From Antennarius striatus (taxonomy: Eukaryota > Chordata > Actinopteri > Lophiiformes > Antennariidae): a stretch of 64,000 nucleotides of DNA. The notes below the pieces were generated by a model. The model made no database searches, was not told the origin of the DNA, and saw only the letters and a program-made list of their open reading frames with translations. Each line of letters starts with the position of its first letter. The first letter of the stretch is position 1. The stretch is from contig NC_090782.1 of assembly GCF_040054535.1 (NCBI RefSeq), positions 26,078,001 to 26,142,000 of the forward strand, written 5' to 3'. This document shows, one piece after another, positions 7,864 through 64,000 of this stretch. The position numbers and the translations under genes were made by a program.

Positions 7864-9186
<1,323 letters not shown>

Positions 9187-10432: not shown

Positions 10433-10735
10433 TTCAGGACGTCACATTCAGGACGTCACCTCCAGGACGTCACCTCCAGGACGTCACCTCCAGGACGTCA
10501 CCTCCAGGACGTCACCTCCAGGACGTCACCTCCAGGACGTCACCTCCAGGACGTCACCTCAAGGACGTCACCTCCAGGACGTCACCTCAAGGACGTCACA
10601 TTCAGGACGTCACCTCCAGGACGTCACCTCCAGGACGTCACCTTCAGGACGTCACCTCCAGGACGTCACCTCCAGGACGTCACCTTCAGGACGTCACCTC
10701 CAGGACGTCACCTCCAGGATGTCACCTCCAGGACA
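10433..10735. repeat. 14-bp minisatellite, about 21 copies, each with an ACGTCA core
   Basis: The unit AGGACGTCACCTCC repeats with a strict 14-bp period; a few copies carry ATTC, TTC or CAA changes in the variable part. Every intact copy contains GACGTC and the CRE half site ACGTCA. Because 14 is not a multiple of three, the 154-aa ORF through it has a 14-residue repeat, and I do not regard it as coding. It lies 1.2 kb after the rgs13-like stop and 3.4 kb before the rgs2 start. Confidence 0.95.
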
Positions 10736-31320: not shown

Positions 31321-31655
31321 AAGGGACGCCTGAAGGACGCCTGAAGGACGTCTGAAGGACGTCTGAAGGACGTCTGAAGGGCGTCTGGAGGATGTCTGAA
31401 GGACGTCTGGAGGGCGTCTGAAGGACGCCTGAAGGGCGTCTGGAGGACGTCTGAAGGGCGTCTGGAGGACGTCTGAAGGGCGTCTGAAGGACGTCTGAAG
31501 GACGCCTGAAGGACGTCTGAAGGGCGTCTGGAGGACGTCTGAAGGACGTCTGGAGGGCGTCTGAAGGACGCCTGAAGGGCGTCTGGAGGACGTCTGAAGG
31601 GCGCCTGAAGGGCGTCTGAAGGACGCCTGAAGGGCGTTTGGAGGGACGCCTGAAA
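31321..31655. repeat. 11-bp minisatellite, about 30 copies
   Basis: The unit is CTGAAGGACGT, with frequent A/G changes (GGAGG, GGGCG) and T/C at the last base. The 11-bp period makes an 11-residue repeat in the - strand ORF, which I do not treat as a gene. Confidence 0.92.
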
Positions 31656-33712: not shown

Positions 33713-34600
33713 TCCTCCCCCAGAATTATTAACATGATTTAACTAATTAGAATTTAATAACGAGACAAAACTGGAGTCCTGTTGGGGGTGATGGTTCACT
33801 GAGGGAGGGGCGATATTCTGTAGCACCATAGCCTTGTTTAGTGTAGTAGCCCCTGTGACTGGGGGGGGGACACCTTTGATTTTGCGCCACCAGGTATTCT
33901 TATTAGTTCTTGTGCAGCTCTGCCCGGACCCATTGACTAACCCCACCCACATGTGGAATATCAAAGTGTTCATCCCGGCCCCCACCATCATGAAGTTCAC
34001 ACCTTCACCCTTTTACGGCTGGAATGACATCCAAGGTTGTGATGGAGAAACGGGCGTTGGTTTGGAGGACTGGGTGACGCTCTGGGGGTCCTGACTAAAC
34101 TCTCCTCAGGGCCCCCGGGGGCTCAGGACTGAATGCTGACAGAGCAGCTCCAGAGCAGCTCCAGAGGCTCCAGAGGCTCCAGAGCAGCTAACAGACGGAG
34201 CTGATTCGTGTCTCTGGTGACCCGGAATAAGAGTTTTATTAACGAAGCTTTATGGACCTTTTTGAGCCTTGTGAACTTTATTTTGTTGGTCTGATCAATG
34301 AATCCATGAATCACAGGCTGAAGAAAAAAACCTCCAGGAGTAAAATCCTCTGTCGTCGTGACAACGCACCGAGCGATGGAGGTGATCGCAGAGCAAACAG
34401 GAGTTGTGCTTTTCCTGCAGGTGACGACCCTCATTGTTCAGCTCCGGCGCCACGGGCAGGAAGCAGCGGTTTGGAACGGAGCCTGAACGCCTGGCGCGTG
34501 GCTGTCGCCCCCCCAACATGAATCCTTCTCCACGCTGCTCCTCTGATGGTTCCCTCGCCACTCAGCTCCACCCCTCTGTGCTCACTCGCTGTTTCTATCC
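33713..34600. other. Spacer between minisatellites
   Basis: No gene was recognised. Short CCAGAGGCT/CCAGAGCAG repeats occur at about 34148-34190. Confidence 0.5.
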
Positions 34601-34910
34601 CACCCCCAACCCTCAGCACCCACCCCCAACCCTCACCACACACCCCCAACCCTCACCACCCACCCTCAACTCTCACCACCCACCCTCAACTCTCACCACA
34701 CACCCCCAACCCTCACCACCCACCCTCAACCCTCACCACCCACCCTCAACTCTCACCACACACCCCCAACCCTCACCACACACCCCCAACCCTCACCACA
34801 CACCCCCAACCCTCACCACCCACCCTCAACCCTCACCACCCACCCTCAACTCTCACCACACACCCCCAACCCTCACCACACACCCCCAACCCTCACCACC
34901 CACCCCCAAC
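34601..34910. repeat. 20-bp minisatellite, about 15.5 copies
   Basis: The unit CACCCCCAACCCTCACCACA alternates with the variant CACCCTCAACYCTCACCACC at an exact 20-bp step. It is C-rich on the + strand. Confidence 0.94.
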
Positions 34911-41095: not shown

Positions 41096-42449
41096 CTTCA
41101 ATTATTCCAAACTGGGAAATTCTCACGTTGCAGCAGCAGACAAACAAACAGGGGGTGTTTCATGGTCTTGAGTGGGGCCGTAAAAGCTGTTCTTGTATAA
41201 TGTCTGTCTGAAAGTCACTCTAGACCCCCCCACACACATTCATTACTGACTGTCAATGGGTGGGTGTCACTGGGCACGCGGGTATCCTCGCTGTCCAGTA
41301 TGACACGTGACTCACTGATGTGTGTGTCATGAAACGCTGTTGGACAGCTGATGTTACTATTGTGATGCTTCTGTCATGACTACGGTTTGATTCATTCACC
41401 CGTGTCCCCCGGTCTGAGCCATGTGTCTGTCCCGCTTGTGATGACAAACTCTGGTAGAACCTTGAACAGAGTTTTTCTAAATTGTTCACTTTGGAAATTT
41501 CATGAGAACTGCTTCTATCTGTCCTCCCAAGGCTGCCCCCATCATTCAGCCCCTCCTGTGCAGTTATCTGGATTCCTGTGTTTTGTTTTAATGAAACTTT
41601 GGGTGCTAGAAGTTTGTGCACAGCATCAATCTCCTCAATCAGGCAAGAGGGAGTTTAGGCTAAGGTGTGTGCATTGGGTTTCCTTTGTTTCTGTGTGGGT
41701 GGGGCTGCAAATGGATTCTTTTAAAATAAAATGAACTTAGAAGTTGTACTAAATCTCTGTCTCTTTTCCTGATCAATGCTGATTTAGAGTTTATACACCT
41801 TTGCAAATGTTGGGGGCCTCAAATTTATCTGTTGTTGTATTTTCCATCTTAATTTTTCTCCCACCCCCCCCACACACCTCTTGTTTTTGTGTCTTTGGTT
41901 ACCGTCCATCAGATATGAGATTACCAGATGATCAGCCAGCTGCACAGAGCCCTGTCACCCCCCCAGACATCCTCTACCCAGTTACGTCCCACTGCTGTTA
42001 CCCCCCTGAAGGTCTGCTGAAGGACATGTCGAGGGAAGAAATGAGATGGTTTTCAGATGGCTCTGTTCACGCCTGCGTGTGAAAGAGATGAACAAATCTC
42101 TGAAGCTGATGTCAGAATTAATCTATCAGATGAAGGAGGCGTTTAAACCAAACTGGAGTTTGGGGGGAGGGTCTGTACCAGACGGGGGGATTTCACATTC
42201 CACACGAGTCCCAGTTTGACTGTTAACGTTCAGTCTGTGCTCAGAATGAGGAACGATGAGGAACTCAGACTCTCCTTCATCAGTGGGCTCAAGTTCAGAG
42301 TGAAGAAAGATTCCAGATGTGACCCCATCTGGAAAACCTGGAGGAAAGACTTTACAGTCCCTCGTCAAGGCGGTCCAACCAAGACCTCCAAGCCCCCCAG
42401 GAGGAGCCCTCCAGTTTCCTTCTGGAAGGAGAAACTTCCAGCACAACCG
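41096..42449. other. Spacer before the LINE remnant
   Basis: No gene was recognised. A C-rich tract occurs at about 41861-41870 and poly-G near 42184-42189. Whether 42200-42449 belongs to the LINE is unclear; no RT motif was seen there. Confidence 0.4.
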
Positions 42450-42806
42450 CCACATGCAGAATTTTTCAGACGACACCGCGATCGTGGCATCAGGGAGGGT
42501 GATGAGCGGAGTACAGGAGGGTGGTGACAGACTTTGTGGGGTGGTGTCAGCAGAATGAGCTTCAGCTGAACATCTCCAAGACCAAGGAGATCGTGCTGGA
42601 TCCCCCCCCCCCCCCAAAGCCAGTGGTCATTGGGGGCAGGGAGGTGGAGGTAGTGGGGACTTACAAGTACCTGGGGCTGCTACCTGAACAGCAGATTGGA
42701 CTGGTCTACCAACCTGGACTGTGTGAACAAGAAAGGTCAGAGTAGGACGGACTTCCTCAGGAGGCTGGCCTACTTCAACATCAGCTCTGAACTGCTGAGA
42801 CTGTGA
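42450..42806 (+). pseudogene. Degenerate LINE reverse-transcriptase fragment
   Basis: This is the C-terminal part of a non-LTR reverse transcriptase, broken by frameshifts. In order there are NFSDDTAIVA (the F-x-DD catalytic motif, about 42459-42488), then in another frame WCQQNELQLNISKTKEIVLD (about 42541-42600), a C14 run at 42602-42615, then GTYKYLGL (about 42656-42679). A third frame, from 42693, has LDWSTNLDCV, GQSR and FLRRLAYFN, ending ELLRL-stop at 42804-42806. This order matches CR1/L2/Rex-type LINEs. At least two frame changes and one in-frame stop make it non-functional. The last frame continues without a break into the array at 42807. Confidence 0.8.
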
Positions 42807-45800
42807 TACCAGTCCAGTGTCCTGTCCTACCAGTCCATAGTGTCCTGTCCCACCAGTCCATACTGTCCTGTCCTACCAGTCCATACTGTCCTGTCCTACC
42901 AGTCCATACTGTCCTGTCCTACCAGTCCATATTGTCCTGTCCTACCAGTCCATATTGTCCTGTCCTACCAGTCCATAGTGTCCAGTGTGCTGGCATACCA
43001 GTCCATAGTGTCCAGTGTGCTGGCATACCAGTCCAATGTGCTGTCCTACCAGTCCATAGAGTCCAATGTGCTTTCCTACCAGTCTACAGTGTCCAGTGTG
43101 CTGTCCTACCAGTCCATTATGTCCAGTGTACTGTCCTACCAGTCCATAGTGTCCAGTGTGCTGTCCTAACAGTCCACAGTGTCCAGTTTGCTGTCCTACC
43201 AGTCCACAGTGTCCAGTGTGCTGTCCTACCAGTCCAGTGTCCAGTGTGCTGTCCTACCAGTCCACAGTGTCCAGTGTGCTGTCCTACCAGTCCACAGTGT
43301 CCAGTGTGCTGTCCTGCCAGTCCACAGTGTCCAGTGTGCTGTCCTGCCAGTCCACAGTGTCCAGTGTGCTGTCCTACCAGTCCAGTGTCCAGTGTGCTGT
43401 CCTACCAGTCCAGTGTGCTGTCCTACCAGTCCACAGTGTCCAGTGTGCTGTCCTACCAGTCCACAGTGTCCAGTGTGCTGTCCTACCAGTCCACAGTGTC
43501 CAGTGTGCTGTCCTACCAGTCCAGTGTGTTGGCCTACCAGTCCACAGTGTCCAGTGTGCTGTCCTACCAGTCCAAAGTGTCCAGTGTGCTGTCCTACCAG
43601 TCCAGTGTCCAGTGTGCTGTCCTACCAGTCCATAGTGTCCAGTGTGCTGTCCTACCAGTCCATAGTGTCCAGTGTGCTGTCATACCAGTCCATAGTGTCC
43701 AGTGTGCTGTCCTACCAGTCCAATGTGCTGTCCTACCAGTCCACAGTGTCCAGTGTGCTGTCCTACCAGTCCATAGAGTCCAATGTGCTGTCCTACCAGT
43801 CTACAGTGTCCAGTGTGCTGTCCTACCAGTCCATTATGTCCAGTGTACTGTCCTACCAGTCCATAGTGTCCAGTGTGCTGTCCTAACAGTCCACAGTGTC
43901 CAGTTTGCTGTCCTACCAGTCCACAGTGTCCAGTGTGCTGTCCTACCAGTCCACAGTGTCCAGTGTGCTGTCCTACCAGTCCACAGTGTCCAGTGTGCTG
44001 TCCTACCAGTCCAGTGTCCAGTGTGCTGTCCTACCAGTCCACAGTGTCCAGTGTGCTGTCCTACCAGTCCACAGTGTCCAGTGTGCTGTCCTACCAGTCC
44101 ACAGTGTCCAGTGTGCTGTCCTACCAGTCCATAGTGTCCAGTGTGCTGTCCTACCAGTCCACAGTGTCCAATGTGCTGTCCTACCAGTCCACAGTGTCCA
44201 ATGTGCTGTCCTACCAGTCCACAGTGTCCAATGTGCTGTCCTACCACTCCAGTGTCCAATGTGCTGTCCTACCACTCCACAGTGTCCAATGTGCTGTCCT
44301 ACCACTCCACAGTGTCCAATGTGCTGTCCTACGAGTCCACAGTGTCCAATGTGCTGTCCTACCAGTCCATAGTGTCCAATGTGCTGTCCTACCAGTCCAT
44401 AGTGTCCAATGTGCTGTCCTACCAGTCCATAGTGTCCAGTGTGCTGACCTACCAGTCCACAGTGTCCAGTATGTTGTCCTACCAGTCGAGTGTGCTCTCC
44501 TACCAGTCCAATGTGCTGTCCTACCAGTCCACAGTGTCCAGTGTGCTGTCCTACCAGTCCATAGTGTCCAGTGTGCTGTCCTACCAGTCCATAGTGTCCA
44601 GTATGCTGTCCTACCAGTCCATAGTGTCCAGTCCTAACAGTCCACAGTGTCCAGTGTGCTGTCCTACCAGTCCACAGTGTCCAGTGTGCTGTCCTACCAG
44701 TCCACAGTGTCCAGTGTGCTGTCCTACCAGTCCACAGTGTCCAGTGTGCTGTCCTACCAGTCCAAAGTGTTCAGTGTGCTGTCCTACCAGTCCATAGTGT
44801 TCAGTGTGCTGTCCTACCAGTCCATAGTGTTCAGTGTGCTGTCCTACCAGTCCATCGTGTCCAGTGTGCTGTCATACCAGTCCATAGTGTCCAGTGTGCT
44901 GTCCTACCAGTCCATAGTGTCCAGTGTGCTGTCCTACCAGTCCAGTGTCCAGTGTGCTGTCCTACCAGTCCATCGTGTCCAGTGTGCTGTCATAGCAGTC
45001 CATAGTGTCCAGTGTGCTGTCCTACCTGTCCAGTGTGCTGTCCTACCAGTCCATAGTGTCCAGTGTGCTGTCATTCCAGTTCAGTGTCCAGTGTGCTGTC
45101 CTAACAGTTCAGTGTCCAGGGTGCTGTCCTACCAGTCCAGTGTGCTGTCCTACCACTCCACAGTGTCCAGTGTGCTGTCCTACCACTCCACAGTGTCCAG
45201 TGTGCTGTCCTACCAGTCCAGTGTCCAGTGTGCTGTCCTACCAGTCCACAGTGTCCAGTGTGCTGTCCTACCAGTCCACAGTGTCCAGTGTGCTGTCCTA
45301 CCTGTCCAGTGTCCAGTGTGCTGTCCTACCAGTCCACAGTGTCCAGTGTGCTTTCCTACCAGTCCACAGTGTCCAGTGTGCTGTCCTACCAGTCCATAGT
45401 GTCCAGTGTGCTGTCCTACCAGTCCACAGTGTCCACGTGCTGTCCTACCACTCCACAGTGTCCAATGTGCTGTCCTACCACTCCACAGTGTCCAATGTGC
45501 TGTCCTACCAGTCCACAGTGTCCAATGTGCTGTCCTACGAGTCCATAGTGTCCAATGTGCTGTCCTACCAGTCCATAGTGTCCAATGTGGTGTCCTACCA
45601 GTCCATAGTGTCCAGTGTGCTGACCTACCAGTCCACAGTGTCCAGTATGTTGTCCTACCAGTCGAGTGTGCTCTCCTACCAGTCCAATGTGCTGTCCTAC
45701 CAGTCCACAGTGTCCAGTGTGCTGTCCTACCAGTCCAGTGTTCTGTCCTACCAGTCCATAGTGTCCAGTGTGCTGTCCTACCAGTCCATAGTGTCCAGTA

Positions 45801-48800
45801 TGCTGTCCTACCAGTCCATAGTGTCCAGTCCTACCAGTCCATAGTGTCCAGTCCTAACAGTCCATAGTGTCCAGTGTGCTGTCCTACCAGTCCACAGTGT
45901 CCAGTGTGCTGTCCTACCAGTCCACAGTGTCCAGTGTGCTGTCCTACCAGTCCACAGTGTTCAGTGTGCTGTCCTACCAGTCCACAGTGTTCAGTGTGCT
46001 GTCCTACCAGTCCATAGTGTTCAGTGTGCTGTCCTACCAGTCCATAGTGTTCAGTGTGCTGTCCTACCAGTCCATCGTGTCCAGTGTGCTGTCATACCAG
46101 TCCATAGTGTCCAGTGTGCTGTCCTACCAGTCCATAGTGTCCAGTGTGCTGTCCTACCAGTCCAGTGTCCAGTGTGCTGTCCTACCAGTCCACAGTGTCC
46201 AGTAGGCTGTCCTACCAGTCCACAGTGTCCAGTGTGCTGTCCTACCAGTCCATAGTGTTCAGTGTGCTGTCCTACCAGTCCATAGTGTTCAGTGTGCTGT
46301 CCTACCAGTCCATCGTGTCCAGTGTGCTGTCCTACCAGTCCATAGTGTCCAGTGTGCTGTCCTACCAGTCCAGTGTCCAGTGTGCTGTCCTACCAGTCCA
46401 TCGTGTCCAGTGTGCTGTCATACCAGTCCATAGTGTCCAATGTGCTGTCCTTCCAGTCCATAGTGTCCAGTGTGCTGACCTACCAGTCCACAGTGCCCAG
46501 TATGTTGTCCTACCAGTCGAGTGTGCTCTCCTACCAGTCCAATGTGCTGTCCTACCAGTCCACAGTGTCCAGTGTGCTGTCCTACCAGTCCAGTGTGCTG
46601 TCCTACCAGTCCATAGTGTCCAGTGTGCTGTCCTACCAGTCCAAAGTGTTCAGTGTGCTGTCCTACCAGTCCAAAGTGTTCAGTGTGCTGTCCTACCAGT
46701 CCATAGTGTCCAGTGTGCTGTCATACCAGTCCATAGTGTCCAGTGTGCTGTCATACCAGTCCATAGTGTCCAGTGTGCTGTCCTACCAGTCCATAGTGTC
46801 CAGTGTGCTTTCCTACCAGTCCAGTGTCCAGTGTGCTGTCCTACCAGTCCATCGTGTCCAGTGTGCTGTCATACCAGTCCATAGTGTCCAGTGTGCTGTC
46901 CTACCTGTCCAGTGTGCTGTCCTACCAGTCCATAGTGTCCAGTGTGCTGTCGTTCCAGTTCAGTGTCCAGTGTGCTTTCCTAACAGTTCAGTGTCCAGGG
47001 TGCTGTCCTACCAGTCCAGTGTGCTGTCCTACCACTCCACAGTGACCAGTGTGCTGTCCTACCAGTCCACAGTGTCCAGTGTGCTGTCCTACCAGTCCAG
47101 TGTCCAGTGTGCTGTCCTACCAGTCCACAGTGTCCAGTGTGCTGTCATACCAGTCCATAGTGTCCAGTGTGCTGTCCTTCCAGTCCAGTGTACTGTCCTA
47201 CCAGTCCATAGTGTCCAGTGTGCTGTCCCACCAGTCCACAGTGTTCAGTGTGATGTCCTACCAGTCCATAGTGTTCAGTGTGCTGTGATACTAGTTGAGT
47301 GTAATGTCCTACCAGTTGAGTGTGCTGCCCTACCAGTCCAGTGTGCTGTCCTACCAGTCCAGTGTCCAGTGTGCTGTCCTAACAGTCCACAGTGTCCAGT
47401 TTGCTGTCCTACCAGTCCACAGTGTCCAGTGTGCTGTCCTACCAGTCCAGTGTCCAGTGTGCTGTCCTACCAGTCCACAGTGTCCAGTGTGCTGTCCTAC
47501 CAGTCCACAGTGTCCAGTGGTGCTGTCCTACCAGTCCACAGTGTCCAGTGTGCTGTCCTACCAGTCCACAGTGTCCAGTGTGCTGTCCTACCAGTCCAGT
47601 GTCCAGTGTGCTGTCCTACCAGTCCAGTGTCCAGTGTGCTGTCCTACCAATCCACAGTGTCCAGTATGCTGTCCTACCAGTCCATAGTGTCCTGTCCTAC
47701 CAGTCCATAGTGTCCAGTGTGCTGTCCTACCAGTCCATAGTGTCCAGTGTGCTGTCCTACCAGTCCATAGTGTCCAGTGTGCTGTCCTACCAGTCCATCG
47801 TGTCCAGTGTGCTGTCATACCAGTCCACAGTGTCCAGTGTGCTGTCATACCAGTCCATAGTGTCCAGTGTGCTGTCCTACCAGTCCATAGTGTCCAGTGT
47901 GCTGTCCTACCAGTCCAGTGTCGAGTGTGCTGTCCTACCAGTCCATCGTGTCCAGTGTGCTGTCATACCAGTCCATAGTGTCCAGTGTGCTGTCCTACCT
48001 GTCCAGTGTGCTGTCCTACAAGTCCATAGTGTCCAATGTGCTTTCCTACCAGTCCACAGTGTCTAGTGTGTTGTCTTACCAGTCCATTGTGTCCAGTGTG
48101 CTGTCGTACCAGTTCAGTGTCAAGTGTGCTGCCCTCCCAGTTCAGTGTCCAGGGTGCTGTCGTACCAGTCCAGTGTGCTGTCGTACCAGTCCAGTGTGCT
48201 GTCCTACCAGTCCAGTGTGCTGTCCTACCAGTCCAGTGTGCTGTCCTACCAGTCCAGTGTGCTGTCCTACCAGTCCACAGTGTCCAGTGTGCTGTCCTTC
48301 CAGTCCAGTGTCCAGTGTGCTGTCCTACCACTCCAGTGTCCAGTGTGCTGTCCTACCACTCCACAGTGTCCAGTGTGCTGTCCTACCAGTCCACAGTGTC
48401 CAGTGTGCTGTCCTACCAGTCCACAGTGTCCAGTGTGCTGTCCTACCAGTCCACAGTGTCCAGTGTGCTTTCCTACCAGTCCACAGTGTCCAGTGTGCTG
48501 TCCTACCAGTCCACAGTGTCCAGTGTGCTGTCGTACCAGTACATAGTGTCCAGTGTGCTGTCCTACCAGTCCATAGTGTCCAATGTGCTGTCCTACCAGT
48601 CCACAGTGTCCAATGTGCTGTCCTACCAGTCCACAGTGTCCAGTATGCTGTCCTACCAGTCCATAGTGTCCTGTCCTACCAGTCCATAGTGTCCAGTGTG
48701 CTGTCCTACCAGTCCATAGTGTCCAGTGTGCTGTCCTACCAGTCCATAGTGTCCAGTGTGCTGTCCTACCAGTCCATAGTGTCCAGTGTGCTGTCCTACC

Positions 48801-50519
48801 AGTCCATCGTGTCCAGTGTGCTGTCATACCAGTCCACAGTGTCCAGTGTGCTGTCATACCAGTCCATAGTGTCCAGTGTGCTGTCCTACCAGTCCATAGT
48901 GTCCAGTGTGCTGTCCTACCAGTCCAGTGTCGAGTGTGCTGTCATACCAGTCCATAGTGTCCAGTGTGCTGTCCTACCTGTCCAGTGTGCTGTCCTACAA
49001 GTCCATAGTGTCCAATGTGCTTTCCTACCAGTCCACAGTGTCTAGTGTGTTGTCTTACCAGTCCATTGTGTCCAGTGTGCTGTCGTACCAGTTCAGTGTC
49101 AAGTGTGCTGCCCTCCCAGTTCAGTGTCCAGGGTGCTGTCGTACCAGTCCAGTGTGCTGTCGTACCAGTCCAGTGTGCTGTCCTACCAGTCCAGTGTGCT
49201 GTCCTACCAGTCCAGTGTGCTGTCCTACCAGTCCACAGTGTCCAGTGTGCTGTCCTACCAGTCCACAGTGTCCAGTGTGCTGTCCTTCCAGTCCAGTGTC
49301 CAGTGTGCTGTCCTACCACTCCACAGTGTCCAGTGTGCTGTCCTACCACTCCACAGTGTCCAGTGTGCTGTCCTACCAGTCCACAGTGTCCAGTGTGCTG
49401 TCCTACCACTCCACAGTGTCCAGTGTGCTTTCCTACCAGTCCACAGTGTCCAGTGTGCTGTCCTACCAGTCCACAGTGTCCAGTGTGCTGTCGTACCAGT
49501 ACATAGTGTCCAGTGTGCTGTCCTACCAGTCCATAGTGTCCAGTGTGCTGTCCTACCAGTCCACAGTGTCCAATGTGCTGTCCTACCAGTCCACAGTGTC
49601 CAATGTGCTGTCCTACCAGTCCACAGTGTCCAATGTGCTGTCCTACCAGTCCACAGTGTCCAATGTGCTGTCCTACCACTCCACAGTGTCCAATGTGCTG
49701 TCCTACCACTCCACAGTGTCCAATGTGCTGTCCTACCAGTCCACAGTGTCCAATGTGCTGTCCTACCAGTCCACAGTGTCCAATGTGCTGTCCTACCAGT
49801 CCACAGTGTCCAATGTGCTGTCCTACCAGTCCACAGTGTCCAATGTGCTGTCCTACCAGTCCACAGTGTCCAATGTGCTGTCCTACCAGTCCACAGTGTC
49901 CAATGTGCTGTCCTACCACTCCACAGTGTCCAATGTGCTGTCCTACAACTCCACAGTGTCCAATGTGCTGTCCTACCACTCCACAGTGTCCAATGTGCTG
50001 TCCTACGAGTCCATAGTGTCCAATGTGCTGTCCTACCAGTCCATAGTGTCCAATGTGCTGTCCTACCAGTCCATAGTGTCCAGTGTGCTGACCTACCAGT
50101 CCACAGTGTCCAGTATGTTGTCCTACCAGTCGAGTGTGCTCTCCTACCAGTCCAATGTGCTGTCCTACCAGTCCACAGTGTCCAGTGTGCTGTCCTACCA
50201 GTCCAGTGTGCTGTCCTACCAGTCCATAGTGTCCAGTGTGCTGTCCTACCAGTCCATAGTGTCCAGTATGCTGTCCTACCAGTCCACAGTGTCCAGTGTG
50301 CTGTCCTACCAGTCCACAGTGTCCAGTGTGCTGTCCTACCAGTCCACAGTGTCCAGTGTGCTGTCCTACCAGTCCAAAGTGTTCAGTGTGCTGTCCTACC
50401 AGTCCATAGTGTTCAGTGTGCTGTCCTACCAGTCCATAGTGTTCAGTGTGCTGTCCTACCAGTCCATCGTGTCCAGTGTGCTGTCATACCAGTCCATAGT
50501 GTCCAGCGTGCTGTCCTAA

Positions 50520-53220
50520 CAGTCCATAGTGTCCAGTGTGCTGTCCTACGAGTCCACAGTGTCCAGTGAGCTGTCCTACCAGTCCACAGTGTCCAGTGTG
50601 CTGTCCTACCAGTCCACAGTGTCCAGTGTGCTGTCCTACCAGTCCACAGTGTCCAGTGTGCTGTCCTACCAGTCCATAGTGTTCAGTGTGCTGTCCTACC
50701 AGTCCATAGTGTCCAGTGTGCTGTCCTACCAGTCCATCGTGTCCAGTGTGCTGTCATACCAGTCCATAGTGTCCAGTGTGCTGTCCTAACAGTCCACAGT
50801 GTCCAGTGTGCTGTCCTAACAGTCCACAGTGTCCAGTGTGCTGTCCTACCAGTCCAAAGTGTTCAGTGAGCTGTCCTACCAGTCCAAAGTGTTCAGTGTG
50901 CTGTCCTACCAGTCCAAAGTGTTCAGTGTGCTGTCCTACCAGTCCAAAGTGTTCAGTGTGCTGTCCTACCAGTCCATAGTGTTCAGTGTGCTGTCCTACC
51001 AGTCCATAGTGTTCAGTGAGCTGTCCTACCAGTCCATCGTGTCCAGTGTGCTGTCATACCAGTCCATAGTGTCCAGTGTGCTGTCCTACCAGTCCATAGT
51101 GTCCAGTGTGCTGTCCTACCAGTCCAGTGTCCAGTGTGCTGTCCTACCAGTCCATCGTGTCCAGTGTGCTGTCATACCAGTCCATCGTGTCCAGTGTGCT
51201 GTCATACCAGTCCATAGTGTCCAGTGTGCTGTCCTACCTGTCCAGTGTGCTGTCCTACCAGTCCATAGTGTCCAGTGTGCTGTCGTTCCAGTTCAGTGTC
51301 CAGTGTGCTGTCCTAACAGTTCAGTGTCCAGGGTGCTGTCCTACCAGTCCAGTGTGCTGTCCTACCACTCCACAGTTTCCAGTGTGCTGTCCTACCAGTC
51401 CAGTGTCCAGTGTGCTGTTCTACCAGTCCAGTGTCCAGTGTGCTGTCCTACCAGTCCACAGTGTCCAGTGTGCTGTCCTACCAGTCCACAGTGTCCAGTG
51501 TGCTGTCCTACCTGTCCAGTGTCCAGTGTGCTGTCCTACCTGTCCAGTGTCCAGTGTGCTGTCCTACCAGTTGAGTGTAATGTGCTACCAGTCCAGTGTC
51601 CAGTGTGCTGTCCTACCAGTCCAGTGTCCAGTGTGCTGTCCTACCAGTCCAGTGTCCAGTGTGCTGTCCTACCAGTCCAGTGTCCAGTGTGCTGTCCTAC
51701 CAGTCCATAGTGTCCAGTGTGCTGTCCTACCAGTCCACAGTGTCCAGTGTGCTGTCCTTCCAGTCCAGTGTCCAGTGTGCTGTCCTACCACTCCAGTGTC
51801 CAGTGTGCTGTCCTACCACTCCACAGTGTCCAGTGTGCTGTCCTACCACTCCACAGTGTCCAGTGTGCTGTCCTACCAGTCCACAGTGTCCATTGTGCTG
51901 TCCTACCAGTCCAGTGTCCAGTGTGCTGTCCTACCAGTCCACAGTGTCCAGTGTGCTGTCCTACCAGTACATAGTGTCCAGTGTGCTGTCCTACCAGTAC
52001 ATAGTGTCCAGTGTGCTGTCCTACCAGTACATAGTGTCCAGTGTGCTGTCCTACCAGTCCATAGTGTCCAATGTGCTGTCCTACCAGTCCACAGTGTCCA
52101 ATGTGCTGTCCTACCAGTCCACAGTGTCCAATGTGCTGTCCTACCACTCCACAGTGTCCAATGTGCTGTTCTACCAGTCCACAGTGTCCAATGTGCTGTC
52201 CTACCAGTCCACAGTGTCCAATGTGCTGTCCTACCAGTCCACAGTGTCCAATGTGCTGTCCTACCACTCCACAGTGTCCAATGTGCTGTCCTACCACTCC
52301 ACAGTGTCCAATGTGCTGTCCTACCACTCCACAGTGTCCAATGTGCTGTCCTACCACTCCACAGTGTCCAATGTGCTGTCCTACCAGTCCACAGTGTCCA
52401 ATGTGCTGTCCTACGAGTCCACAGTGTCCAATGTGCTGTCCTACCAGTCCATAGTGTCCAATGTGCTGTCCTACCAGTCCACAGTGTCCAATGTGCTGTC
52501 CTACCAGTCCACAGTGTCCAATGTGCTGTCCTACCACTCCACAGTGTCCAATGTGCTGTCCTACCACTCCACAGTGTCCAATGTGCTGTCCTACCACTCC
52601 ACAGTGTCCAATGTGCTGTCCTACCACTCCACAGTGTCCAATGTGCTGTCCTACGAGTCCATAGTGTCCAATGTGCTGTCCTACCAGTCCATAGTGTCCA
52701 ATGTGCTGTCCTACCAGTCCATAGTGTCCAGTGTGCTGACCTACCAGTCCACAGTGTCCAGTATGTTGTCCTACCAGTCGAGTGTGCTCTCCTACCAGTC
52801 CAATGTGCTGTCCTACCAGTCCACAGTGTCCAGTGTGCTGTCCTACCAGTCCAGTGTGCTGTCCTACCAGTCCATAGTGTCCAGTGTGCTGTCCTACCAG
52901 TCCATAGTGTCCAGTATGCTGTCCTACCAGTCCATAGTGTCCAGTCCTAACAGTCCATAGTGTCCAGTGTGCTGTCCTACCAGTCCACAGTGTCCAGTGT
53001 GCTGTCCTACCAGTCCACAGTGTCCAGTGTGCTGTCCTACCAGTCCACAGTGTCCAGTGTGCTGTCCTACCAGTCCAAAGTGTTCAGTGTGCTGTCCTAC
53101 CAGTCCATAGTGTTCAGTGTGCTGTCCTACCAGTCCATAGTGTTCAGTGTGCTGTCCTACCAGTCCATCGTGTCCAGTGTGCTGTCATACCAGTCCATAG
53201 TGTCCAGCGTGCTGTCCTAA
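50520..53220. repeat. Higher-order repeat block A (about 2.7 kb)
   Basis: It starts with an array marker in which TACGAGTCCACAGTG is followed by TCCAGTGAGCTG at about 50549. The same marker recurs 2701 bp later (53250) and again 4151 bp after that (57401). The block includes a distinctive TTGAGTGTAATGTGC variant near 51570. Confidence 0.85.
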
Positions 53221-56200
53221 CAGTCCATAGTGTCCAGTGTGCTGTCCTACGAGTCCACAGTGTCCAGTGAGCTGTCCTACCAGTCCACAGTGTCCAGTGT
53301 GCTGTCCTACCAGTCCACAGTGTCCAGTGTGCTGTCCTACCAGTCCACAGTGTCCAGTGTGCTGTCCTACCAGTCCATAGTGTTCAGTGTGCTGTCCTAC
53401 CAGTCCATAGTGTCCAGTGTGCTGTCCTACCAGTCCATCGTGTCCAGTGTGCTGTCATACCAGTCCATAGTGTCCAGTGTGCTGTCCTAACAGTCCACAG
53501 TGTCCAGTGTGCTGTCCTAACAGTCCACAGTGTCCAGTGTGCTGTCCTACCAGTCCAAAGTGTTCAGTGAGCTGTCCTACCAGTCCAAAGTGTTCAGTGT
53601 GCTGTCCTACCAGTCCAAAGTGTTCAGTGTGCTGTCCTACCAGTCCAAAGTGTTCAGTGTGCTGTCCTACCAGTCCATAGTGTTCAGTGTGCTGTCCTAC
53701 CAGTCCATAGTGTTCAGTGAGCTGTCCTACCAGTCCATCGTGTCCAGTGTGCTGTCATACCAGTCCATAGTGTCCAGTGTGCTGTCCTACCAGTCCATAG
53801 TGTCCAGTGTGCTGTCCTACCAGTCCAGTGTCCAGTGTGCTGTCCTACCTGTCCAGTGTGCTGTCCTACCAGTCCATAGTGTCCAGTGTGCTGTCGTTCC
53901 AGTTCAGTGTCCAGTGTGCTGTCCTAACAGTTCAGTGTCCAGGGTGCTGTCCTACCAGTCCAGTGTGCTGTCCTACCACTCCACAGTTTCCAGTGTGCTG
54001 TCCTACCAGTCCAGTGTCCAGTGTGCTGTTCTACCAGTCCAGTGTCCAGTGTGCTGTCCTACCAGTCCACAGTGTCCAGTGTGCTGTCCTACCAGTCCAC
54101 AGTGTCCAGTGTGCTGTCCTACCTGTCCAGTGTCCAGTGTGCTGTCCTACCTGTCCAGTGTCCAGTGTGCTGTCCTACCAGTTGAGTGTAATGTGCTACC
54201 AGTCCAGTGTCCAGTGTGCTGTCCTACCAGTCCAGTGTCCAGTGTGCTGTCCTACCAGTCCAGTGTCCAGTGTGCTGTCCTACCAGTCCAGTGTCCAGTG
54301 TGCTGTCCTACCAGTCCATAGTGTCCAGTGTGCTGTCCTACCAGTCCACAGTGTCCAGTGTGCTGTCCTTCCAGTCCAGTGTCCAGTGTGCTGTCCTACC
54401 ACTCCAGTGTCCAGTGTGCTGTCCTACCACTCCACAGTGTCCAGTGTGCTGTCCTACCACTCCACAGTGTCCAGTGTGCTGTCCTACCAGTCCACAGTGT
54501 CCATTGTGCTGTCCTACCAGTCCAGTGTCCAGTGTGCTGTCCTACCAGTCCACAGTGTCCAGTGTGCTGTCCTACCAGTACATAGTGTCCAGTGTGCTGT
54601 CCTACCAGTACATAGTGTCCAGTGTGCTGTCCTACCAGTACATAGTGTCCAGTGTGCTGTCCTACCAGTACATAGTGTCCAGTGTGCTGTCCTACCAGTC
54701 CATAGTGTCCAATGTGCTGTCCTACCAGTCCACAGTGTCCAATGTGCTGTCCTACCAGTCCACAGTGTCCAATGTGCTGTCCTACCACTCCACAGTGTCC
54801 AATGTGCTGTTCTACCAGTCCACAGTGTCCAATGTGCTGTCCTACCAGTCCACAGTGTCCAATGTGCTGTCCTACCAGTCCACAGTGTCCAATGTGCTGT
54901 CCTACCACTCCACAGTGTCCAATGTGCTGTCCTACCACTCCACAGTGTCCAATGTGCTGTCCTACCACTCCACAGTGTCCAATGTGCTGTCCTACCACTC
55001 CACAGTGTCCAATGTGCTGTCCTACCAGTCCACAGTGTCCAATGTGCTGTCCTACGAGTCCACAGTGTCCAATGTGCTGTCCTACCAGTCCATAGTGTCC
55101 AATGTGCTGTCCTACCAGTCTATAGTGTCCAGTGTGCTGACCTACCAGTCCACAGTGTCCAGTATGTTGTCCTACCAGTCGAGTGTGCTCTCCTACCAGT
55201 CCAATGTGCTGTCCTACCAGTCCACAGTGTCCAGTGTGCTGTCCTACCAGTCCAGTGTGCTGTCCTACCAGTCCATAGTGTCCAGTGTGCTGTCCTACCA
55301 GTCCATAGTGTCCAGTATGCTGTCCTACCAGTCCATAGTGTCCAGTCCTAACAGTCCATAGTGTCCAGTGTGCTGTCCTACCAGTCCACAGTGTCCAGTG
55401 TGCTGTCCTACCAGTCCACAGTGTCCAGTGTGCTGTCCTACCAGTCCACAGTGTCCAGTGTGCTGTCCTACCAGTCCAAAGTGTTCAGTGTGCTTTCCTA
55501 CCAGTCCATAGTGTTCAGTGTGCTGTCCTACCAGTCCATAGTGTTCAGTGTGCTGTCCTACCAGTCCATCGTGTCCAGTGTGCTGTCATACCAGTCCATA
55601 GTGTCCAGTGTGCTGTCCTAACAGTCCATAGTGTCCAGTGTGCTGACCTACCAGTCCACAGTGTCCAGTATGTTGTCCTACCAGTCGAGTGTGCTCTCCT
55701 ACCAGTCCAATGTGCTGTCCTACCAGTCCACAGTGTCCAGTGTGCTGTCCTACCAGTCCAGTGTGCTGTCCTACCAGTCCATAGTGTCCAGTGTGCTGTC
55801 CTACCAGTCCATAGTGTCCAGTATGCTGTCCTACCAGTCCATAGTGTCCAGTCCTAACAGTCCATAGTGTCCAGTGTGCTGTCCTACCAGTCCACAGTGT
55901 CCAGTGTGCTGTCCTACCAGTCCACAGTGTCCAGTGTGCTGTCCTACCAGTCCACAGTGTCCAGTGTGCTGTCCTACCAGTCCAAAGTGTTCAGTGTGCT
56001 TTCCTACCAGTCCATAGTGTTCAGTGTGCTGTCCTACCAGTCCATAGTGTTCAGTGTGCTGTCCTACCAGTCCATCGTGTCCAGTGTGCTGTCATACCAG
56101 TCCATAGTGTCCAGTGTGCTGTCCTAACAGTCCATAGTGTCCAGTGTGCTGTCCTACCAGTCCATAGTGTCCAATGTGCTGTCCTACCAGTCCATAGTGT

Positions 56201-57371
56201 CCAATGTGCTGACCTACCAGTCCACAGTGCCCAGTATGTTGTCCTACCAGTCGAGTGTGCTCTCCTACCAGTCCAATGTGCTGTCCTACCAGTCCACAGT
56301 GTCCAGTGTGCTGTCCTACCAGTCCAGTGTGCTGTCCTACCAGTCCATAGTGTCCAGTGTGCTGTCCTACCAGTCCATAGTGTCCAGTATGCTGTCCTAC
56401 CAGTCCATAGTGTCCAGTCCTAACAGTCCATAGTGTCCAGTGTGCTGTCCTACCAGTCCACAGTGTCCAGTGTGCTGTCCTACCAGTCCACAGTGTCCAG
56501 TGTGCTGTCCTACCAGTCCACAGTGTCCAGTGTGCTGTCCTACCAGTCCAAAGTGTTCAGTGTGCTGTCCTACCAGTCCATAGTGTTCAGTGTGCTGTCC
56601 TACCAGTCCATAGTGTTCAGTGTGCTGTCCTACCAGTCCATCGTGTCCAGTGTGCTGTCATACCAGTCCATAGTGTCCAGTGTGCTGTCCTAACAGTCCA
56701 TAGTGTCCAGTGTGCTGTCCTAACAGTCCAGTGTCCAGTGTGCTGTCCTACCAGTCCAGTGTCCAGTGTGCTGTCCTACCAGTCCATCGTGTCCAGTGTG
56801 CTGTCATACCAGTCCATAGTGTCCAGTGTGCTGTCCTACCTGTCCAGTGTGCTGTCCTACCAGTCCATAGTGTCCAGTGTGCTGTCGTTCCAGTTCAGTG
56901 TCCAGTGTGCTGTCCTAACAGTTCAGTGTCCAGGGTGCTGTCCTACCAGTCCAGTGTGCTGTCCTACCACTCCACAGTGTCCAGTGTGCTGTCCTACCAG
57001 TCCAGTGTGCTGTCCTACCAGTCCATAGTGTCCAGTGTGCTGTCCTACCAGTCCATAGTGTCCAGTATGCTGTCCTACCAGTCCATAGTGTCCAGTCCTA
57101 ACAGTCCATAGTGTCCAGTGTGCTGTCCTACCAGTCCACAGTGTCCAGTGTGCTGTCCTACCAGTCCACAGTGTCCAGTGTGCTGTCCTACCAGTCCACA
57201 GTGTCCAGTGTGCTGTCCTACCAGTCCAAAGTGTTCAGTGTGCTGTCCTACCAGTCCATAGTGTTCAGTGTGCTGTCCTACCAGTCCATAGTGTTCAGTG
57301 TGCTGTCCTACCAGTCCATCGTGTCCAGTGTGCTGTCATACCAGTCCATAGTGTCCAGTGTGCTGTCCTAA
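53221..57371. repeat. Higher-order repeat block B (about 4.15 kb)
   Basis: It shares its first part with block A, less about 90 bp near 53840. It then adds four sub-blocks that each begin after CCTAACAGTCCATAGTGTCC, at about 55350, 55856, 56422 and 57100 (steps 506, 566 and 678 bp). Confidence 0.85.
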
Positions 57372-60300
57372 CAGTCCATAGTGTCCAGTGTGCTGTCCTA
57401 CGAGTCCACAGTGTCCAGTGAGCTGTCCTACCAGTCCACAGTGTCCAGTGTGCTGTCCTACCAGTCCACAGTGTCCAGTGTGCTGTCCTACCAGTCCACA
57501 GTGTCCAGTGTGCTGTCCTACCAGTCCATAGTGTTCAGTGTGCTGTCCTACCAGTCCATAGTGTCCAGTGTGCTGTCCTACCAGTCCATCGTGTCCAGTG
57601 TGCTGTCATACCAGTCCATAGTGTCCAGTGTGCTGTCCTAACAGTCCACAGTGTCCAGTGTGCTGTCCTAACAGTCCACAGTGTCCAGTGTGCTGTCCTA
57701 CCAGTCCAAAGTGTTCAGTGAGCTGTCCTACCAGTCCAAAGTGTTCAGTGTGCTGTCCTACCAGTCCAAAGTGTTCAGTGTGCTGTCCTACCAGTCCAAA
57801 GTGTTCAGTGTGCTGTCCTACCAGTCCATAGTGTTCAGTGTGCTGTCCTACCAGTCCATAGTGTTCAGTGAGCGGTCCTACCAGTCCATCGTGTCCAGTG
57901 TGCTGTCATACCAGTCCATAGTGTCCAGTGTGCTGTCCTACCAGTCCATAGTGTCCAGTGTGCTGTCCTACCAGTCCAGTGTCCAGTGTGCTGTCCTACC
58001 AGTCCATCGTGTCCAGTGTGCTGTCATACCAGTCCATCGTGTCCAGTGTGCTGTCATACCAGTCCATAGTGTCCAGTGTGCTGTCCTACCTGTCCAGTGT
58101 GCTGTCCTACCAGTCCATAGTGTCCAGTGTGCTGTCGTTCCAGTTCAGTGTCCAGTGTGCTGTCCTAACAGTTCAGTGTCCAGGGTGCTGTCCTACCAGT
58201 CCAGTGTGCTGTCCTACCACTCCACAGTTTCCAGTGTGCTGTCCTACCAGTCCAGTGTCCAGTGTGCTGTTCTACCAGTCCAGTGTCCAGTGTGCTGTCC
58301 TACCAGTCCACAGTGTCCAGTGTGCTGTCCTACCAGTCCACAGTGTCCAGTGTGCTGTCCTACCTGTCCAGTGTCCAGTGTGCTGTCCTACCTGTCCAGT
58401 GTCCAGTGTGCTGTCCTACCAGTTGAGTGTAATGTGCTACCAGTCCAGTGTCCAGTGTGCTGTCCTACCAGTCCAGTGTCCAGTGTGCTGTCCTACCAGT
58501 CCAGTGTCCAGTGTGCTGTCCTACCAGTCCAGTGTCCAGTGTGCTTTCCTACCAGTCCATAGTGTCCAGTGTGCTGTCCTACCAGTCCACAGTGTCCAGT
58601 GTGCTGTCCTTCCAGTCCAGTGTCCAGTGTGCTGTCCTACCACTCCAGTGTCCAGTGTGCTGTCCTACCACTCCACAGTGTCCAGTGTGCTGTCCTACCA
58701 CTCCACAGTGTCCAGTGTGCTGTCCTACCAGTCCACAGTGTCCATTGTGCTGTCCTACCAGTCCAGTGTCCAGTGTGCTGTCCTACCAGTCCACAGTGTC
58801 CAGTGTGCTGTCCTACCAGTACATAGTGTCCAGTGTGCTGTCCTACCAGTACATAGTGTCCAGTGTGCTGTCCTACCAGTACATAGTGTCCAGTGTGCTG
58901 TCCTACCAGTACATAGTGTCCAGTGTGCTGTCCTACCAGTCCATAGTGTCCAATGTGCTGTCCTACCAGTCCACAGTGTCCAATGTGCTGTCCTACCACT
59001 CCACAGTGTCCAATGTGCTGTTCTACCAGTCCACAGTGTCCAATGTGCTGTCCTACCAGTCCACAGTGTCCAATGTGCTGTCCTACCAGTCCACAGTGTC
59101 CAATGTGCTGTCCTACCACTCCACAGTGTCCAATGTGCTGTCCTACCACTCCACAGTGTCCAATGTGCTGTCCTACCACTCCACAGTGTCCAATGTGCTG
59201 TCCTACCACTCCACAGTGTCCAATGTGCTGTCCTACCAGTCCACAGTGTCCAATGTGCTGTCCTACGAGTCCACAGTGTCCAATGTGCTGTCCTACCAGT
59301 CCATAGTGTCCAATGTGCTGTCCTACCAGTCTATAGTGTCCAGTGTGCTGACCTACCAGTCCACAGTGTCCAGTATGTTGTCCTACCAGTCGAGTGTGCT
59401 CTCCTACCAGTCCAATGTGCTGTCCTACCAGTCCACAGTGTCCAGTGTGCTGTCCTACCAGTCCAGTGTGCTGTCCTACCAGTCCATAGTGTCCAGTGTG
59501 CTGTCCTACCAGTCCATAGTGTCCAGTATGCTGTCCTACCAGTCCATAGTGTCCAGTCCTAACAGTCCATAGTGTCCAGTGTGCTGTCCTACCAGTCCAC
59601 AGTGTCCAGTGTGCTGTCCTACCAGTCCACAGTGTCCAGTGTGCTGTCCTACCAGTCCACAGTGTCCAGTGTGCTGTCCTACCAGTCCAAAGTGTTCAGT
59701 GTGCTTTCCTACCAGTCCATAGTGTTCAGTGTGCTGTCCTACCAGTCCATAGTGTTCAGTGTGCTGTCCTACCAGTCCATCGTGTCCAGTGTGCTGTCAT
59801 ACCAGTCCATAGTGTCCAGTGTGCTGTCCTAACAGTCCATAGTGTCCAGTGTGCTGACCTACCAGTCCACAGTGTCCAGTATGTTGTCCTACCAGTCGAG
59901 TGTGCTCTCCTACCAGTCCAATGTGCTGTCCTACCAGTCCACAGTGTCCAGTGTGCTGTCCTACCAGTCCAGTGTGCTGTCCTACCAGTCCATAGTGTCC
60001 AGTGTGCTGTCCTACCAGTCCATAGTGTCCAGTATGCTGTCCTACCAGTCCATAGTGTCCAGTCCTAACAGTCCATAGTGTCCAGTGTGCTGTCCTACCA
60101 GTCCACAGTGTCCAGTGTGCTGTCCTACCAGTCCACAGTGTCCAGTGTGCTGTCCTACCAGTCAACAGTGTCCAGTGTGCTGTCCTACCAGTCCAAAGTG
60201 TTCAGTGTGCTTTCCTACCAGTCCATAGTGTTCAGTGTGCTGTCCTACCAGTCCATAGTGTTCAGTGTGCTGTCCTACCAGTCCATCGTGTCCAGTGTGC

Positions 60301-61430
60301 TGTCATACCAGTCCATAGTGTCCAGTGTGCTGTCCTAACAGTCCATAGTGTCCAGTGTGCTGTCCTACCAGTCCATAGTGTCCAATGTGCTGTCCTACCA
60401 GTCCATAGTGTCCAATGTGCTGACCTACCAGTCCACAGTGCCCAGTATGTTGTCCTACCAGTCGAGTGTGCTCTCCTACCAGTCCAATGTGCTGTCCTAC
60501 CAGTCCACAGTGTCCAGTGTGCTGTCCTACCAGTCCAGTGTGCTGTCCTACCAGTCCATAGTGTCCAGTGTGCTGTCCTACCAGTCCATAGTGTCCAGTA
60601 TGCTGTCCTACCAGTCCATAGTGTCCAGTCCTAACAGTCCATAGTGTCCAGTGTGCTGTCCTACCAGTCCACAGTGTCCAGTGTGCTGTCGTACCAGTCC
60701 ACAGTGTCCAGTGTGCTGTCCTACCAGTCCACAGTGTCCAGTGTGCTGTCCTACCAGTCCAAAGTGTTCAGTGTGCTGTCCTACCAGTCCATAGTGTTCA
60801 GTGTGCTGTCCTACCAGTCCATAGTGTTCAGTGTGCTGTCCTACCAGTCCATCGTGTCCAGTGTGCTGTCATACCAGTCCATAGTGTCCAGTGTGCTGTC
60901 CTAACAGTCCATAGTGTCCAGTGTGCTGTCCTAACAGTCCAGTGTCCAGTGTGCTGTCCTACCAGTCCAGTGTCCAGTGTGCTGTCCTACCAGTCCATCG
61001 TGTCCAGTGTGCTGTCATACCAGTCCATAGTGTCCAGTGTGCTGTCCTACCTGTCCAGTGTGCTGTCCTACCAGTCCATAGTGTCCAGTGTGCTGTCGTT
61101 CCAGTTCAGTGTCCAGTGTGCTGTCCTAACAGTTCAGTGTCCAGGGTGCTGTCCTACCAGTCCAGTGTGCTGTCCTACCACTCCACAGTGTCCAGTGTGC
61201 TGTCCTACCAGTCCAGTGTCCAGTGTCCTTTCCTACCAGTCCAGTGTCCAGTGTGCTGTCCTACCAGTCCACAGTGTCCATTGTGCTGTCCTACCTGTCC
61301 AGTGTCCAGTGTGCTGTCCTACCTGTCCAGTGTCCAGTGTGCTGTCCTACCAGTTGAGTGTAATGTGCTACCAGTCCAGTGTCCAGTGTGCTGTCCTACC
61401 AGTCCAGTGTCCAGTGTGCTGTCCTACCAG
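57372..61430. repeat. Higher-order repeat block C (about 4.1-4.2 kb), near copy of B
   Basis: Markers at 55361, 55867 and 56433 in block B recur at 59572, 60078 and 60644, each 4211 bp later. It keeps the 90 bp missing from B near 57990-58080, as block A does. Similarity fades near 61.2-61.4 kb; the right edge is approximate. Confidence 0.8.
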
Positions 61431-64000
61431 TCCATCGTGTCCAGTGTGCTGTCATACCAGTCCATCGTGTCCAGTGTGCTGTCCTACCAGTCCATCGTGT
61501 CCAGTGTGCTGTCCTACCAGTCCATCGTGTCCAGTGTGCTGTCATACCAGTCCATCGTGTCCAGTGTGCTGTCCTACCAGTCCATCGTGTCCAGTGTGCT
61601 GTCCTACCAGTCCATCGTGTCCAGTGTGCTGTCCTACCAGTCCATAGTGTCCAGTGTGCTGTCCTACCCGTCCAGTGTGCTGTCCTACCAGTTCATAGTG
61701 TCCAATGTGCTTTCCTACCAGTCCACAGTGTCCAGTGTGCTGTCCTACCAGTCCATAGTGTCCAGTGTGCTGTCGTACCAGTTCAGTGTCCAGTGTGCTG
61801 TCCCACCAGTTCAGTGTCCAGGGTGCTGTCCTACCAGTCCAGGGTGCTGTCTTGCCAGTCCAGTGTACTGTCCTACCAGTCCAGTGTGCTGTCCTACCAG
61901 TCCAGTGTGCTGTCCTACCAGTCCACAGTGTCCAGTGTGCTGTCCTACCATTCCAGTGTCCAGTGTGCTGTCGTACCAGTCCACAGTGTCCAGTGTGCTG
62001 TCCTACCAGTCCACAGTGTCCAATGTTCCGTCTTACCAGTCCACAGTGTCCAGTGTGCTGTCCTACCAGTCCAGTGTGCTTTTCTACCAGTCCACAGTGT
62101 CCTGTGTGCTGTCCTACCAGTCCACAGTGTCCAGTGTGCTGTCCTACCAGTCCACAGTGTCCAGTGTGCTGTCCTACCAGTCCACAGTGTCCAGTGTGCT
62201 TTCCTACCGGTCCACAGTGTCCAGTGTGCTTTCCTACCAGTCCACAGTGTCCAGTGTGCTGTCCTACCAGTCCACAGTGTCCAATGTGCTGTCCTACCAG
62301 TCCACAGTGTCCAATGTGCTGTCCTACCAGTCCACAGTGTCCAATGTGCTGTCCTCCCAGTCCATAGTGTCCAATGTGCTGTCCTACCAGTCCATAGTGT
62401 CCAATGTGCTGTCCTTCCAGTCCAGTGTGCTGACTTACCAGTCCACAGTGTCCAATATGTTGTCCTACCAGTCGAGTGTGCTCTCCTACCAGTCCAATGT
62501 GCTGTCCTACCAGTCCACAGTGTCCAGTGTGCTTTCCTACCAATCCAGTGTGCGGGTCTACCAGTCCATAGTGTCCAGTGTGCTTTCCTACCAGTCCAGC
62601 GTGCTATCCTACCAGTCCAGTGTGCTGTCCTATCAGTCCATAGTGTCCAGTGTACTGTCCTACCAGTCCATAGTGTTCAGTGTGATCCTACCAGTCCATA
62701 GTGTTCAGTATGCTGTCCTACCAGTTGAGTGTAATGTCCTACCAGTTGAGTGTGCTGCCCTACCAGTCCAGTGTGCTGTGCTACCAGTCCAGTGTCCAGT
62801 GTGCGGTCATACCAGTCCATAGAGTCCAATTTGCTTTCCTACCAGTCCATAGAGTCCAATGTGCTTTCCTACCAGTCCACAGTGTCCAGTGTGCTGTCCT
62901 ACCAGTCCACAGTGTCCAATGTGCTGTCCTACCAGTCCACAGTGTCCAATGTGCTGTCCTACCAGTCCAGTGTGCTGTCCTACCAGTCCAGTGTCCAGTG
63001 TGCTGTCCTACCACTCCACAGTGTCCAATGTGCTGTCCTACCAGTCCACAGTGTCAATTGTGCTGTCCTACGAGTCCATAGTGTCCAATGTGCTGTCCTA
63101 CCAGTCCATAGTGTCCAATGTGCTGTCCTACCAGTCCATAGTGTCCAGTGTGCTGACCTACCAGTCCACAGTGTCCAGTATGTTGTCCTACCAGTCGAGT
63201 GTGCTCTCCTACCAGTCCAATGTGCTGTCCTACCAGTCCACAGTGTCCAGTGTGCTGTCCTACCAGTCCAGTGTGCTGTCCTACCAGTCCATAGTGTCCA
63301 GTGTGCTGTCCTACCAGTCCATAGTGTCCAGTATGCTGTCCTACCAGTCCATAGTGTCCAGTCCTAACAGTCCATAGTGTCCAGTGTGCTGTCCTACCAG
63401 TCCACAGTGTCCAGTGTGCTGTCCTACCAGTCCACAGTGTCCAGTGTGCTGTCCTACCAGTCCACAGTGTCCAGTGTGCTGTCCTACCAGTCCAAAGTGT
63501 TCAGTGTGCTGTCCTACAAGTCCATAGTGTTCAGTGTGCTGTCCTACCAGTCCACAGTGCCCAGTATGTTGTCCTACCAGTCGAGTGTGCTCTCCTACCA
63601 GTCCAATGTGCTGTCCTACCAGTCCACAGTGTCCAGTGTGCTGTCCTACCAGTCCAGTGTGCTGTCATACCAGTCCATAGTGTCCAGTGTGCTGTCCTAC
63701 CAGTCCATAGTGTCCAGTATGCTGTCCTACCAGTTCATAGTGTCCAGTCCTAACAGTCCATAGTGTCCAGTGTGCTGTCCTACCAGTCCACAGTGTCCAG
63801 TGTGCTGTCCTACCAGTCCACAGTGTCCAGTGTGCTGTCCTACCAGTCCACAGTGTCCAGTGTGCTGTCCTACCAGTCCAAAGTGTTCAGTGTGCTGTCC
63901 TACCAGTCCATAGTGTTCAGTGTGCTGTCCTACCAGTCCATAGTGTTCAGTGTGCTGTCCTACCAGTCCATCGTGTCCAGTGTGCTGTCATACCAGTCCA

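Follow-up and report, generated by a model that had tools for sequence, protein, structure and literature searches.

Where does a tandem array come from when it begins directly inside the coding sequence of a LINE? The question is raised by a 64,000-nucleotide stretch of Antennarius striatus DNA (C7:26078001-26142000, hereafter the window), in which a fragment of a LINE reverse transcriptase (RT) runs into an array of short repeats. The best explanation of the locus as a whole is a minisatellite that grew inside an RT-bearing LINE copy, with a bias toward chromosome ends and with the segment encoding YQSIVSSVLS as its unit. The probability of this reading is put at about 0.85.

The array at the C7 locus

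The LINE fragment occupies positions 42434..42806 on the forward strand. It is 5'-truncated, diverged and frameshifted, and it spans the C-terminal part of the RT palm (FSDDTAIV..YKYLGL) up to LRRLAYFNISSELLRL. Comparison of the sequence with the alignment and the listed copies identifies a TGA at 42804..42806 (forward strand), just 5' of the array, in place of the phenylalanine codon of LFYQS. The tandem array follows on the same strand at 42807..64000 and continues beyond the window; TRF and a unit census resolve it into units of mostly 30, 21 and 28 bp that derive from the LINE codons for YQSIVSSVLS. An RT fragment, a stop and a repeat starting at 42807 had been reported by the first-pass annotation, and all three are present in the sequence. 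Its estimate of a 21-kb array with about 700 units was too low, as the window and the neighbouring stretches together contain an array of 44,404 bp with 1,604 anchor matches, or approximately 1,600 units, whose right end lies at G000:C7:26165210 (87,210 in window-extended coordinates).

The census of the 44-kb array assigns 1,058 of 1,603 spacings to 30 bp, 268 to 21 bp and 209 to 28 bp. Within the window, TRF reports a 30-bp array at 42956-64000 (733.7 copies) and a 23-bp row at 42807-43064. The window part holds 763 anchors, and 122 of its 762 spacings are not multiples of three, so the reading frame drifts within the array; frame-shifting spacings include 28 bp (91 times), 14 bp (17 times) and 23 bp (8 times). 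Each forward frame of the window array contains 85-119 stops, and the longest stop-free stretches span 635 codons. The long C7 array is without frame constraint.

On the left, LINE sequence adjoins the array directly. On the right, a 206-bp spacer without LINE match (87211-87416; L011:3211-3416) replaces about 230 bp of LINE, and it had no match among 40 scored hits. A search past 64 kb for the remainder of the element, suggested earlier, located LINE 3' sequence that restarts at 87,417 and reaches a tail near 87,860 in window-extended coordinates. The C7 array sits within one LINE copy. A search for a target-site duplication of this copy gave short matches only, the best being 7 bp.

Long-range similarity within the array is extensive: 80-mers recur at offsets of 9,409, 6,852, 4,211 and 2,611 bp, repeated 80-mers cover 93% of the array, and unique stretches lie mainly near both edges. 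Kilobase offsets combined with unique edges fit block-wise unequal exchange in the central zone. Among the 1,058 units of 30 bp, ACA occurs in 462 and ATA in 450. In many LINE copies of a one-mismatch listing the segment ends in TCA instead of TCC, as do 84 of the 1,058 units; these units possibly stem from a second LINE group, or an identical mutation may have arisen twice.

The window contains other tandem repeats, among them a near-perfect 21-bp array at 32584-33712 (53.8 copies, 100% match by TRF) and further minisatellites such as those at 10435-10734, 20908-21546, 31324-31654 and 34599-34910. Their number suggests that this end of C7 may be generally rich in tandem repeats. An open reading frame at window positions 8594-9082 runs into a TG dinucleotide repeat, and one stretch of it is presumably RGS-domain-like.

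The unit and its source LINE

Relatives of the LINE were searched for in 548 Mb of genome on 42 contigs. Single-unit relatives in this genome carry LFYQSIVSSVLSYAIVCWGG at the site of the array, with exactly one 30-bp unit, and LFYQSIVSSVLSYAIVCWGG is also the translation of the copy L008; another copy, at C1:6584052-6584116, reads AGACTGTTCTACCAGTCCATTGTGTCCAGTGTGCTGTCCTACGCCATTGTGTGTTGGGGTGGTGG when its sequence is taken from overlapping hits. Exactly one 30-bp unit is present in each of nine fetched copies, where the first-pass annotation had proposed looking for a lone unit at the same place. The copy L006 (C1:8.556M) has a 21-bp form, in which a 9-bp deletion creates a short unit like that found in the array. 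The codon preceding the unit is TTC or TTT in 94 of the 95 other copies listed, TCC in one, and TGA at C7.

The LINE segment is identical to the two commonest window units at 28/30 and 29/30 bases. Its best match in window positions 1-42700 reaches 18/30, and 20 shuffled versions score 14-19 against the in-window array, compared with 29 for the true segment. The earlier proposal that the unit derives from a LINE RT segment is borne out by these values, and the relatives do have YQSIVSSVLSY directly after LRRL...LLRL, the absence of which had been named as evidence against it. The 30 bp encoding YQSIVSSVLS make up the unit, and unexpanded copies carry them once.

Homology of the unit to an element, unamplified copies of that element and arrays bounded by it are the marks of a transposon-derived satellite, and all three are found here. 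LINE sequence lies on both sides in eight loci read, with a left side of only about 18 bp at L059 (C11:1.332M). Arrays without a LINE flank did not appear among the expanded loci whose flanks were read.

The C7 fragment aligns to positions 1476-1891 of the copy L004 with 84% identity over 417 columns. Its 72-residue peptide, made by joining two frames, matches the RVT_1 profile with an E-value of 0.0018 and 18.5 bits, under the Pfam cut-off of 29.6. A profile search with the 747-residue open frame of L006 returns RVT_1 at 3.1e-24 and ALKBH8_N at 2.5e-9, and its sequence matches in the PDB include R2 (1e-9) and L1 ORF2 proteins (2.3e-3). By resemblance, we take the source LINE to be CR1/L2/Rex1-like. 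Among viral contigs searched for relatives, 30 stretches fit the pattern and none was confirmed.

Ten expanded copies near contig ends

Expanded copies were sought with a pattern for the junction between two units, allowing at most two mismatches, so that arrays with more divergent junctions would escape. Genome-wide, the pattern has 1,298 forward and 8 reverse matches, with 0 in a backward control. Nine fetched loci hold 1,297 of the forward matches and all 8 reverse ones, the remaining forward match lying at C11:1.322M; 1,252 forward matches fall within the window and the adjoining 100 kb. Ten LINE copies are thus expanded at the same site, so the birth point proposed at 42807 does not stand alone.

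The main C7 array is followed in size by C12:21.03M with 20 units, C11:1.253M with 13, C6:1.519M and C17:0.362M with 9 each, C11:1.237M with 7, C5:452k with 3 and C11:1.332M (L059) with 2. The locus at C11:1.322M, seen in the junction search only, probably has 2 units because its junction, CTGTCTTAC, is the same as that at C11:1.332M. The tenth, at C15:1.312M, is a +3-bp form that appears to be a contracted remnant, and we infer that 30 bp were duplicated and that 27 bp were then deleted through the CCATTGTGT repeat.

Measured from LINE edge to LINE edge, nine single-unit copies span 34 bp, and seven short arrays (of 2, 3, 7, 9, 9, 13 and 20 units) span 34+30k bp, which indicates that phase is kept in short arrays. 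The continuity of frame described earlier therefore holds at the start of the C7 array and in the short arrays, and is lost inside the 44-kb array.

Four expanded copies (L051, L052, L059 and C11:1.322M) lie within 95 kb at C11:1.237-1.332M, one of them in the opposite orientation, and the CTGTCTTAC junction common to two C11 copies suggests local duplication. In L056 (C16:20.705M), which has a contig end 0.51 Mb away, the LINE is apparently truncated at the unit and carries a single ATA unit preceded by TCC; this copy may be a contracted array.

For all nine expanded loci tested, a contig end is 0.33-1.52 Mb away, and C11:1.322M, outside these nine, lies 1.32 Mb from its contig start. The comparison set comes from a pattern for the left edge, which finds 171 LINE copies; the 100 that were listed fit it without a mismatch, and 95 of these are not among the expanded loci. 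Nine of the 95 were unplaceable relative to contig ends, leaving 86, with minimum lengths for C3, C4, C9, C13 and C14 derived from how the contigs rank by size. Among the matches listed, 13 of 86 non-expanded copies have a contig end within 1.6 Mb, compared with 9/9 expanded loci (Fisher, 4.2e-7). The value becomes 8.2e-6 with the three C11 loci collapsed to one, and 8.5e-5 when, in addition, the nine unplaced copies are counted as terminal. A permutation test on the largest distance, with C11 collapsed, gives 5e-6. The 1.6-Mb limit was chosen after inspection of the data; a rank test, which uses no distance limit, gives 3e-5.

The other copies of the source LINE are dispersed over the genome, among the matches listed. 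Since expanded and unexpanded copies share the same sequence context, the effect of position can be separated from that of sequence. "Near an end" here means near a contig end, one of which could be an acrocentric centromere, so that "subtelomeric" is a candidate label. Recombination is often considered to be high near chromosome ends.

Growth and spread of the arrays

Under the favoured reading, the first duplication would have used an imperfect 9-bp direct repeat, CTGTTCTAC...CTGTCCTAC, whose copies lie 30 bp apart on either side of the segment. Subsequent lengthening may have come from recombination, through unequal exchange or the repair of breaks, more readily near chromosome ends, with the copying of kilobase blocks as a putative final stage. 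Units probably also passed between loci by exchange among LINE copies located near chromosome ends. A function of the array is neither needed nor supported.

The bracketing CTGTTCTAC/CTGTCCTAC pair agrees at 8/9 positions in copies with TTC and at 7/9 in those with TTT, has no exact run longer than 4 bp, and ranks below the strongest short repeat within the LINE. Because the pair is imperfect and outranked, sequence alone fails to explain why this segment was chosen. A perfect 9-mer occurs 27 bp apart in the ATT copies L004 and L008, yet a 27-bp unit class is absent from the census. The arrangement resembles the model of Haber and Louis (1998), in which, as described in the passages cited from PMC6947457, very short repeats (5-10 bp) flank the motif that undergoes the initial duplication; here the unexpanded 9-mer is imperfect (8/9 or 7/9) and its use is conjectural.

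How ten copies came to be expanded at one site admits more than one account. The first has a single duplication in an ATA-bearing copy near a chromosome end, spread by ectopic gene conversion to recipients that then expanded privately. It comes close to an even chance, and would also explain the restriction to chromosome ends. Units with ATA are present in 9/10 expanded loci (not C15) and in 7/95 other copies among the matches listed; Fisher tests, computed with 8/10 because C12 was scored as non-ATA, give 9e-7, and 1.8e-4 when loci are collapsed. This enrichment argues against fully independent births. TCC stands left of the array at 4/9 expanded loci with a visible left edge and in 1/95 of the listed others, and the left 60 bp are identical between C5 and C6. 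The affinities of C11a are mosaic: its far left flank is closest to C11b, the sequence immediately right of its array to C11b and C11c, its further right flank to other copies, and its nearest left 60 bp, by a small margin, to L008.

Other observations fit spread by conversion less well. The C15 units are ATT, and C12 has ATA in 14/20 units, but its first units alternate between ATT and ATA. Arrays also have private variants, such as the ACA found in 462 of the 1,058 C7 units of 30 bp. The best right-flank matches of C5 and C12 lie outside the ten loci, none of which appears among the 39 other scored hits for each (best 40 of 1,611 and 1,273, respectively). For the C7 right flank, C11:1.253M is among the 40 scored hits (81%, partial), and the rest are copies elsewhere at 74-87%. 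The ATA pattern remains compatible with either inter-locus exchange or a predisposed variant.

The second account treats this codon position of the LINE as a recurrent satellite nursery, the 30-bp segment having been amplified separately in several copies and on several chromosomes, only near ends. It is advanced tentatively, as a possibility that falls short of even odds. If it is true, dispersed LINE copies would act as reporters of where a genome makes satellites.

A third account, in which an array-bearing LINE master retrotransposed to all expanded sites, is improbable. The 30-bp steps of the short arrays keep the frame, so such an element might have stayed active. It was evaluated with trees of the LINE flanks from 9 array copies and 10 others (8 and 9 for the left flank); of the others, L056, L057, L058, L060 and L061 were picked for their ATA/TCC state and five were top hits of the genome search. 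With trimmed flanks, a single array clade is rejected on the left (AU p 0.0035), on the right (1.6e-52) and on both combined (4.8e-38), which makes one retrotransposing array-bearing master unlikely. Untrimmed flanks reject it on the right (7.9e-6), with p 0.09 on the left; they show long branches from non-LINE sequence, and the trimmed trees were used instead. The nearest flank relatives of C5 and C12, among the hits scored, are outside the ten loci, and, with the other copies dispersed, new insertions would not be expected to fall solely near contig ends.

The fourth, a protein-coding tandem repeat under selection, has a negligible probability: although 30- and 21-bp units are divisible by three and the stop-free stretches are long, the C7 LINE copy is 5'-truncated and frameshifted, and the frame drift from 28-, 14- and 23-bp spacings together with the stops in every forward frame leads us to reject a coding function of the C7 array.

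Satellites derived from transposable elements, including subtelomeric ones, are already known as a kind. In the portions cited of Vassetzky et al. (2023, PMC10702118), SINE-derived satellites of squamates form graded loci with a subtelomeric preference; as here, tandem repeats arise from part of a retroelement, copy number is graded and the parent element is dispersed. The squamate source is a SINE, and in most arrays there the unit at one of the two ends is longer, whereas the present arrays amplify a 30-bp LINE coding segment within the element. In Lathyrus sativus, by the account cited from Vondrak et al. (2020, PMC7004042), Ogre-derived satellites expand in primary constrictions, and short tandem repeats of dispersed retrotransposons likewise expand in particular chromosome regions. 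The Ogre repeats pre-exist in the 3'UTR, whereas the LINE starts from one unit in coding sequence and expands near contig ends.

A review, in the part cited here (PMC9659126), lists satellites related to LINE ORF2, namely chicken HinfI (CR1) and PROsat and Pvc20 (both L1); these share with the present case a relation to LINE coding sequence. A review of primate satellites describes telomeric regions as rich in minisatellites (PMC7767330, in the section cited). A text search of the paper collection for the unit or its peptide returned no paper, and none of the titles listed in further literature searches reports such a case. The value of the present case lies in the staged series in LINE coding sequence, its single-copy controls and the effect of position.

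The beginnings of satellites are seldom visible. In this case one genome displays the unexpanded state in many LINE copies, together with ten expanded loci that range from an apparent remnant and copies with 2 units up to about 1,600. The location of the expansions near ends is contrary to the primary constrictions of Lathyrus, as reported in the cited text of PMC7004042. The system thus lends itself to asking, in a natural setting, whether arrays are built up or worn down by recombination.
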